A program made the translations under genes and the position numbers. This document shows, piece by piece, positions 7,290-46,125 of a stretch of DNA of 64,000 bases. Each line of letters begins with the position of its first letter. Positions within the stretch are counted from its first letter, which is position 1. The notes below the pieces were generated by a model. The model saw nothing but the letters and a program-made list of their open reading frames with translations, was not told the DNA's origin and did no database searches. Origin of the DNA: Allofustis seminis DSM 15817 (GTDB lineage: Bacteria; Bacillota; Bacilli; Lactobacillales; Carnobacteriaceae_A); contig NZ_KB894079.1 in NCBI RefSeq assembly GCF_000374325.1, positions 341,301 to 405,300 on the forward strand, written 5' to 3'.

Positions 7290-7589
7290 TTATAGTGCTT
7301 TAATAATAGATTCTATTTCATCATAAATTGGTTCTGCCATTGATGGAATTCTATAAAGAATCGGACCACAAACTACTATTGGTACATTAGTTTTAAAAGA
7401 TAAGTCGATTTTGGAAATTGGGCAAAAAATATCATATTTTTCAATCATTTCTTTAGTTATATTACTTAAAACCGTGGTGTCAGCCTTTACTTCATAGCCA
7501 CGAGTTTTCATTTCTTTAACGATCGCATTCTTAATTTGAGTACTTGAATTTATTCCTGTACCACATGCTGTTAAAATTTTTATCATCAT
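7290..7589 (-). CDS. gatB: PTS galactitol-type EIIB component
   Basis: A 99-residue cytoplasmic phosphocarrier. The phosphorylatable cysteine is in the N-terminal loop MMIKILTACGTGINSST, typical for GatB. I chose the ATG at 7587-7589, which overlaps the TGA stop of the IIA gene and has AAAGGAG 7 bases upstream; an in-frame GTG two codons earlier is possible but badly spaced. Receives phosphate from EIIA and passes it to the sugar in EIIC. Confidence 0.88.
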   Translation of the reverse strand: MMIKILTACGTGINSSTQIKNAIVKEMKTRGYEVKADTTVLSNITKEMIEKYDIFCPISKIDLSFKTNVPIVVCGPILYRIPSMAEPIYDEIESIIKAL

Positions 7590-33760: not shown

Positions 33761-35694
33761 TTAATACCTCTCAATCAATTCTACATTTTTATTATTTCTT
33801 AGATTAAAAAGATTTTTCTTAAGTTCATGCATTACATTGAAATTTATAGAACTTGCAAAAATGACAATCCTATTTATATCTAGTTCTAAGCTTTCTATTC
33901 TTTTGATAAGTTCCATTACATCGCTTGATTCAAGCCCTTCATCAATGATATAAAGGCTATTATCTTTTTTATCAGCAACATACTTATCTAACTTATATTT
34001 TTCTGCCCCTTCACTTAATCCATATCCATCTAGTAGAAGATAGGTAGAAAGAATAGCGTCACGACCCTTAGAATTTTTTGTATCAAAAATAGAGATCATA
34101 TCATTAGAAATTAATTTTGGATTATCATCGAAATAATCAAGGTCAGTAAGCACTTTTTCATCAACAGTTTCTAAGAAGTAAGTCTTAAAGCCATAGTCAA
34201 TATCAGCACCTGTTTCTTCTTTTATCTTTTTGGCAGCACGTCTTATTCTTTCGCGACCAATTTCATCAATGGTTCTGTAACCTGCTTTATAAGCGGGTTT
34301 CTTTTCATCAATTACTTCAGGAAGTTGAACTAATATATATTTTCTATTAGCTCCAGCCCCCCCCCCGAATTTTGGGCGTTTTCAGCATTTAATTGCATTA
34401 CTGCATGGGCTGTTGTAGCACTGCCTGAAAAGAAGTTTAGTATGATGGAGTTATTATCGTTTATCATATTAGCAATATATTTTACAAGGGTTACAGGTTT
34501 AGGAAAATCAAATATTGTTTTATTATTAAATAAAGTTCCTATCATTTTGCTAGCCTCTTCATTTGTTCCAACATTACACTCTAGTTTATTGATAATATTT
34601 GATGGTACTTTTATTCTGCTTTCTTTTCTTTCATAACGTATAGCAAATTTTTCAGTCTTTACCCAGAATACCGTACCTTTTTCAATTTCATTATCTAAAG
34701 TTTCTTGTGTCCATTTAAATTTACCTTTTAATTTCAAATCAGATGTAGACTTTCCATTTACAATTTCAATATCTTCTAAAAGCTCAACCCTATCATATTT
34801 ACCTTTTGGATAAAAGCCGTTTATCTTAAAAATTATAGAATTTTTTCTAAAATTTAATTTTCTTTCTGCATTTGACTCATTTAATAAAGGCATATCACCT
34901 CCATCAATAATACCGGCTGATAATCCATTTTCTCGATTATTAGAAATCTTATAACATATAATATATTCATATTTTTTTCTTACATCTTTTGACAAACTAG
35001 GAGGTGTAGAGGTCTTATTCCATAGAAACATTGATATAAAATTCTCTTCCCCAAATATCTCATCACACATAAGCTTCAAATTAGCTTGTTCATTATCATC
35101 AATCGATATAAATATTACCCCATCATCGCTTAAAAGTTCCCTTGCCAGTATTAATCTTGGGTACATAAAGGTAAGCCATGCAGAATGGGAGCTTTTACCT
35201 TTTAGGTTGATAATCCTTTCAGCTTCTTCTTCCTCAATTCCTATCATTTCTGATAGTTTTTTGGCATCAAAAGAAAAGTCGTCTGGATAGACAAATCCAT
35301 CAGAACCTGTGTTGTAGGGTGGATCAATGTAAATGCACTTAATCTTTCCTGCATAAGAACCTAGTAAATGTTTTAGCGCATCAATATTATCTCCAACGAT
35401 ATATAGATTTTCACTATTTTTGTTTTCATCTTTTGCATTTTCTTCTATATGTGGGGATACAAAAGTTTCTGTTTTTGTAGAGGAAAGGTATCTTGCATAA
35501 GATTTTCCTAAAAACTTTAGTTCATATCCTTCTTTGCTAAGATTGATATCACTTGTCTTTAGCATCTCCATAAATCTATCTATTAGAAATTCTCCGTCCT
35601 TATCAAAAAACTGTGGGAAATTTTGTTTTAACTTCTCAATTTCATTACTATTTGGCTTTATATTCTCATTAGCCAACATATGATCTTTTAACAT
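33761..35694 (-). CDS. mod: Type III DNA-methyltransferase Mod, interrupted at a G10 tract
   Basis: N6-adenine methyltransferase of the beta class: IYIDPPYNTGSD (motif IV) at about 121-132 comes before NFFSGSATTAHAV (motif I) near 425. The frame opened at 35694 reads through a run of ten G and stops after 454 residues. The remaining C-terminal part, beginning GANRKYILVQLPE and running to the stop at 33761, is in another frame. Eleven (or eight) G would join them into a protein of about 644 residues, the usual Mod size. So the gene is intact apart from the homopolymer. It is likely phase-variable and OFF here; a sequencing slip is the main alternative. XRE regulator gene 9 bases upstream. Confidence 0.88.
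34357..34366 (-). repeat. G10 homopolymer inside mod (phase-variation tract)
   Basis: Ten C on the plus strand, ten G in the coding strand, in an otherwise AT-rich gene and just 3' of the catalytic motifs. The tract is preceded by AATTC and followed by CTGGAGC. A change of one base (to 11) restores the full frame. Confidence 0.85.
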
Positions 35695-35951: not shown

Positions 35952-35989
35952 AATCATAGAAATATAGCGAACGCTATATTTCTATGATT
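35952..35989. promoter_or_regulatory. 38-bp perfect palindrome upstream of the XRE-mod-res operon
   Basis: Two 18-base arms (first arm AATCATAGAAATATAGCG) are exact reverse complements separated by AA. It sits in the promoter region, with another AGCGCT-containing repeat just beyond. It fits a double or extended site for the XRE protein; a cruciform or transcript hairpin is also possible. Confidence 0.75.
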
Positions 35990-46072: not shown

Positions 46073-46125
46073 AAAAAAAAAAAAAAAAACACTTAGTGCT
46101 ATCAAAAATATTAGCATCTAAGTGT
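46073..46125 (-). terminator. Terminator of murB with a 17-base A/T tract
   Basis: ACACTTAG/CTAAGTGT outer stem with an inner TGCTA/TTAGCA pairing and a run of 17 A on the plus strand (T on the transcript strand). Confidence 0.9.

Follow-up and report, generated by a model that had tools for sequence, protein, structure and literature searches.

The type III DNA methyltransferase gene (mod) of Allofustis seminis DSM 15817 is broken by a run of ten G, and this tract is probably a contingency locus, recorded in the OFF state, at which slippage during DNA replication turns the enzyme ON or OFF. The two reading frames of mod would be joined or split as the replicating tract gains or loses G. In the OFF state Mod would end after its FxGxG motif, missing both the strand that follows and the C-terminal domain of the EcoP15I type, and is expected neither to methylate nor to form the Mod2Res complex; since Res needs Mod to find its site, restriction would be switched off together with Mod. 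Cells in the ON state would carry Mod methylation at one short non-palindromic site throughout the genome, with Res restricting DNA that lacks the mark, and cells of the same population are predicted to differ in their sensitivity to phages and plasmids and possibly in gene expression. The switch may in addition control other genes, i.e. constitute a phasevarion.

The mod gene and its G10 tract

The window, i.e. the whole 64-kb stretch of DNA that was analysed, holds three genes on the minus strand in the order xre (35907 to 35704), mod (35694 to 33761) and res (33759 to 30811), each with a plausible ribosome site in front. The xre-type regulator (HTH_26, 67 aa) ends 9 nt upstream of mod and is likely cotranscribed with it in one operon, and a single base separates the end of mod from the ATG of res. 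A 17-bp hairpin, terminator- or operator-like, is found upstream of xre (35952-35989). The res gene is intact (982 aa) and matches NF012027 with 1199.7 bits over positions 1-983 of 986, so that the neighbouring intact res required of a type III restriction-modification system is present at near full length.

The first part of mod (34330-35694) spans 454 codons followed by a premature stop and matches N6_N4_Mtase (PF01555, 116.1 bits). It holds the features of an EcoP15I-type type III enzyme in their order: DPPY at residues 124-127 (35314-35325), which we take to be catalytic, a target recognition region at residues about 229-400 (34495-35010, with approximate boundaries) and the FxGxG motif, here FSGS, at residues 422-425. 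With ten G the first frame meets its stop 8 codons beyond the tract, at 34330. The last part of the gene (33761-34366) lies in another frame, which is uninterrupted from the tract to the stop at 33761 (201 codons), and matches T3RM_EcoP15I_C (PF18273, 95 bits) in full despite being out of frame with the head. The OFF product thus retains both DPPY and FSGS but neither the next strand nor the C-terminal domain. In the alignment to EcoP15I Mod (4zcf_A) the first part ends at residue 459 and the last part starts at residue 462, and the tract therefore codes for a loop. A simple repeat inside the open reading frame that sets the frame downstream of it, as in phase-variable mods of the simple sequence repeat (SSR) class, is found here in the form of G10.

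The tract consists of exactly ten G on the coding strand, seen as C10 on the plus strand at 34357-34366. It is the longest G or C run of the window, the runners-up being one C6 and one G6, and the DNA around it has 31% GC. Markov models (order 1-4) fitted to the window minus the tract predicted 0.0016-0.0064 G or C runs of at least ten in 64 kb, counting both strands, and 0.04-0.14 in 1.44 Mb, the size of the assembly (14 contigs, 99.69% complete). An origin of the tract by chance is very unlikely. The preliminary description had called the gene a type III mod with a run of exactly ten G that is exceptional in such AT-rich DNA, that places the C-terminal third out of frame in the OFF state and that would give a normal-length protein with eleven or eight G; the profile matches, the neighbouring res, the frames, their arithmetic and the expected counts all agree with this.

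Runs of at least eight G occur at five places in the whole genome, these being the G10 of mod, one G9 and three G8. As 1.4-3.7 such runs are expected genome-wide under the Markov models, the G8 runs are ordinary; two of them lie in genes for a BglG-type regulator and a RodA/FtsW-type protein, named from reading their translations, and the third close to where a short ORF ends. That G8-G9 runs are present also in other, housekeeping-type genes counts against a switch. The G9 (G000:C1:304528-304536, locus L002) lies where the ORF of a PP2C-type phosphatase ends, the stop of this ORF overlapping with the start of a PrkC-type kinase, both again named by translation, and slippage in the run could result in a changed or fused reading of the pair. 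An A17 run was also observed in the window (46073-46089), between genes reading like murB and rpiA and upstream of the rpiA-like gene.

Position of the tract and comparison with known systems

A homology search with Mod scored 7998 candidates, and the best 120, including Mod itself, were compared. Mod is a mosaic. Among the matches listed, its head is up to 93% identical to P0013 and its tail 80% identical to a Peptoniphilaceae MAG, whereas the recognition region matches Capnocytophaga cynodegmi at 75% and both Riemerella and a Helicobacteraceae MAG at about 71%. Comparison of the joint with that of the relatives showed the tract to lie in a derived stretch (34349-34380, minus strand) reading NAE-NAQNSGGG...AGA-NRKYI against the usual NAEDGGNRKYI. 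The short joint was present in 118 of the 119 other best matches, the remaining one, P0003, being broken off before the joint. The block from the motif-I TT to RK(Y/F) measured 13-16 residues in these 118 and 14 in 111 of them, and neither a longer joint nor three consecutive glycines was found in any of the 118 readable joints.

No second allele of mod was found among the best 120 proteins of the full or the tail-only search, A. seminis being the one genome covered for its genus, and tract lengths other than G10 were accordingly not observed; searches of plasmids gave only distant relatives. Many of the 120 listed tail-only matches are 204 aa long and start with MQLN or MKLN; the canonical joint was read in them and they were rejected as OFF alleles. 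Among 67 related loci, a run of at least seven G was placed inside mod only for L026 (G7), L036 and L052, eight of the runs being read in sequence and the rest judged by position. A Synergistaceae MAG has a G12 on the reverse strand (L031:1262), within an ORF and at a distance of about 3 kb from the mods of that MAG.

In Helicobacter pylori, modH is a poly-G phase-variable type III mod which governs a phasevarion and whose OFF state gives a truncated protein (PMC5700931). Its tract lies 104 bp downstream of the recognition domain, compared to about 130 bp in A. seminis mod where the boundary is approximate, and the flanking primers printed in that paper translate to AVLESNKS and RFILVQL; the flanks in A. 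seminis read AVMQLNAEN and NRKYILVQL. In both genes the coding region thus contains a poly-G in the loop that follows the motif-I helix and precedes RxILVQL, which is a match of position only, seen through translation of the primers. Unlike A. seminis mod, modH is ON with ten G (PMC3230613, which gives the tract counts per strain, and PMC5700931), and unlike modH, A. seminis mod has mostly Firmicutes among its nearest relatives and a recognition region of the Capnocytophaga/Riemerella kind. Of the two genes, switching and a regulon have been demonstrated for modH only. The best reading of these features is that A. seminis mod is a putative phase-variable mod of the SSR class, modH-like by position and logic.

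ModS of Streptococcus suis, termed the 'first example of SSRs' switching a methyltransferase in a Gram-positive, is like A. seminis mod a Lactobacillales type III mod with DPPY, FxGxG and a variable recognition domain, but its repeat is GAGCA at the 5′ end and not a poly-G two thirds into the gene (PMC6265453). No tandem array scoring at least 30 was found in the 5′ region of A. seminis mod, and a repeat of the ModS type is thus absent. Mid-gene poly-G tracts are shared with methyltransferase genes of the wall-less Mycoplasma agalactiae and the Gram-negative Anaerobiospirillum. In M. agalactiae a poly(G) of 6-11, the length variation of which was measured, sets the frame of a methyltransferase that is a CpG enzyme, whereas the type III mod of that species uses GA repeats (PMC9465063). 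The Anaerobiospirillum genes are type III mods: L036 has three tracts of G9-G10 (2650, 4981 and 7374), all out of frame, and L052 has a G8 in frame at 7381 and further runs at 2672 and 5041. These loci differ from that of A. seminis in holding several mods each and in having the tract about 50 codons further downstream, after a CTKxVH-like sequence in those that were read.

Repeats are carried by 17.4% of mods (PMC7394358), and poly-C and poly-G in type III methyltransferase genes are named in general terms in PMC3711429. No poly-G-controlled type III mod of a lactic-type Gram-positive was found in the literature consulted, and the dedicated survey of type III repeats (Atack 2018, gky192) may list some. 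Should the tract vary, restriction and genome-wide methylation would be under poly-G control in a lactic-type Gram-positive, and the ModH design would extend to a distant lineage.

Repeats in the family and in other Lactobacillales mods

A plain search for G9 in 27 genomes of the same family gave five G runs of at least ten, in addition to a G31 at a contig end which was taken as an artefact. Type III mods hold two of the five, namely the G10 of A. seminis and a G11 in a genome of another genus (G019, one contig). In G019 the 44-codon ATG frame of mod ends just past the G11, near the start, and the body of 641 codons is open in another frame, inside which an alternative start may be located. 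With the A. seminis run left out, one of the four remaining runs lies in a mod, and the probability of at least one doing so is about 0.001 when the mods are assumed to occupy 7 genomes × 2 kb of 59.3 Mb (a sum of rounded sizes). A further one of the five runs belongs to an ABC-2-type permease gene, which has a G10 in G005, giving one 270-codon frame, and a G9 in G002, giving two frames, in stretches that are identical over the 400 bases before the tract and 98.7% identical over the 300 bases after it. The length of such a tract therefore differs between related genomes of the family. Taken together, the G019 mod and the permease tracts support a candidate contingency locus at A. seminis mod. 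The permease tracts are located at L109:1501 (G005) and L118:1225 (G002) and a MerR-type regulator then follows, both genes being named from translation.

PF18273 was found over its cut-off in 13 of 395 genomes of the order and in 20 of 397, 4 of 105 and 8 of 295 genomes of three of its families, these samples overlapping to give 36 distinct genomes including A. seminis. A simple repeat in or just upstream of mod was seen in 10 of the 36. Poly-G accounts for three: the G10 of A. seminis, the G11 of G019 and a weak, merely suggestive G8, in frame, in G028. Units of 4 nt were found in G285 (AGAC ×20) and G313 (TCAC ×9, on both sides of an assembly gap), and units of 5 nt in G085 (GCACA ×10, at a contig edge), G939 (ACTCA ×11), G1031 (ACTCA ×10), G1055 (GAGCA ×30) and G1328 (AAGAG ×5). 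The start of mod is lost at a contig end in G345, G991 and G796, where 5′ repeats lie outside judgement. The same scan detected no arrays elsewhere in 35 surveyed loci (130 kb), and when its criteria were relaxed for the 17 loci examined first, a few shorter runs were listed elsewhere in them. In a phylum sample of 398 genomes only three passed the PF18273 cut-off, A. seminis among them, and the two other mods showed no G or C run of at least six in their loci and none of the scanned kinds of array in longer stretches.

Poly-G control had at the outset been considered noteworthy in a lactic-type Gram-positive. An affiliation with Lactobacillales is likely also from the phosphomevalonate kinase of the genome, whose two best other matches are metagenome proteins without a species name (56% and 50%) and whose named matches, at 33-39%, come mostly from Enterococcus, Vagococcus, lactobacilli and related genera, besides a few others. 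Poly-G control recurs within the same family, but repeat-bearing mods as such are not rare in the survey, and the count suggests that heterogeneous methylation and phage sensitivity may be widespread in Lactobacillales. A wider proposal, which we put forward as tentative and somewhat doubtful, is that type III methyltransferases switched by repeats could form a large repertoire in Lactobacillales. The poly-G class of this family would have its switch in the same loop as Helicobacter modH, either through convergence or because the joint was transferred, and another class would switch the reading of a leader peptide through a terminator before mod.

A terminator-like hairpin was observed between the upstream repeats and mod in four of the surveyed genes, in G939 and G1031 (reverse strand of L160:885-1060 and L162:928-1101), in G085 (L144:1-150) and in G313 (L142:2073-2320). 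In G939, with 11 ACTCA, a 23-codon leader ORF stops before the hairpin, and in G1031, with 10 ACTCA, a 57-codon leader passes through the hairpin to the start of mod; no leader start was found upstream of mod in G085 and G313. The difference between the two leaders suggests a putative repeat-switched attenuator in front of mod. The GAGCA ×30 array of G1055 (L163:1015-1164) lies inside the mod of another family of Lactobacillales and has the same unit as modS of S. suis.

Conservation of mod and competing explanations

Codon 420 of mod (34435-34437, minus strand), just before FSGS, encodes Asn, and Asp occupies this position in 115 of 115 full-length relatives aligned. A motif count beyond the alignment gave Asp in 170 other protein occurrences and Asn in A. 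seminis mod only, and among 118 motif reads of loci L010-L176 the three with Asn were all copies of this same gene. The Asp before FxGxG is conserved in the aligned relatives and is not a formal family criterion, so that the family assignment is unaffected by Asn420. Judged from this residue, the ON-state Mod may be weakened or dead owing to Asp420Asn at motif I. The earlier view of mod as intact except for its tract thus stands with respect to stops and frameshifts, of which there are no others, and fails with respect to Asp420, replaced in the A. seminis copy alone.

Asp420Asn counts in favour of a decaying pseudogene, in which the function of mod has been lost and the G run is merely the site of the frame break. 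Plain decay of mods occurs, as 3 of the 36 surveyed (G112, G089 and G1109) are broken without a repeat counted by the scan. The break in G112 is at an A9; this genome, a single contig, was set aside as support since both its mod and its res are broken and a sequencing error may be the cause. Decay of A. seminis mod is nevertheless unlikely, as the gene has no further stop or frameshift, res is intact, the tract occupies the modH site within a derived stretch and a second family member, G019, has G11 in its mod. Of the positions that at least 90% of relatives share (115 for the first part, 110 for the tails), 80/80 are furthermore kept in the head and 25/25 in the tail. The figures are 4/5 for the recognition region and 13/15 for residues 401-441, and the departures of residues 250 and 439 from the consensus count, like Asp420Asn, against the switch. 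The tail aligns to ten close relatives without gaps save for one residue absent from P0109, at a mean identity of 0.755; the range of the relatives themselves is 0.71-0.81, eight of the ten being higher, which is a small point against the switch.

Homopolymers this long are hard to sequence, and in the poly-G pilus switch of Bifidobacterium breve the tract length of the reference differs from that of the main population (PMC9187656). An assembly or sequencing error, with a true tract joining the frames and the gene simply ON, is on this basis conceivable but improbable, and it would remove the OFF claim and leave the switch in place, because a long G tract would remain at which slippage is still expected. 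Programmed transcriptional or ribosomal slippage, known to occur at homopolymers in other genes, would give short and long Mod from one genotype with a fixed tract and is highly improbable given that the G005/G002 tract differs in DNA length within the family.

Mods broken at another site were also encountered. Tail-only matches starting at GS(A/G)TTAHAV were rejected as tract alleles; the L011 mod is split there by foreign sequence after FFSG (L011:7270-7300), and mods split exactly at the FFSG/S codons were likewise seen in P0003, P0127, P0130, P0139 and P0148. The insert of L011 includes an ORF which we take to resemble a RepA initiator, and the conserved FFSG/S motif of mods may be targeted by a mobile element.
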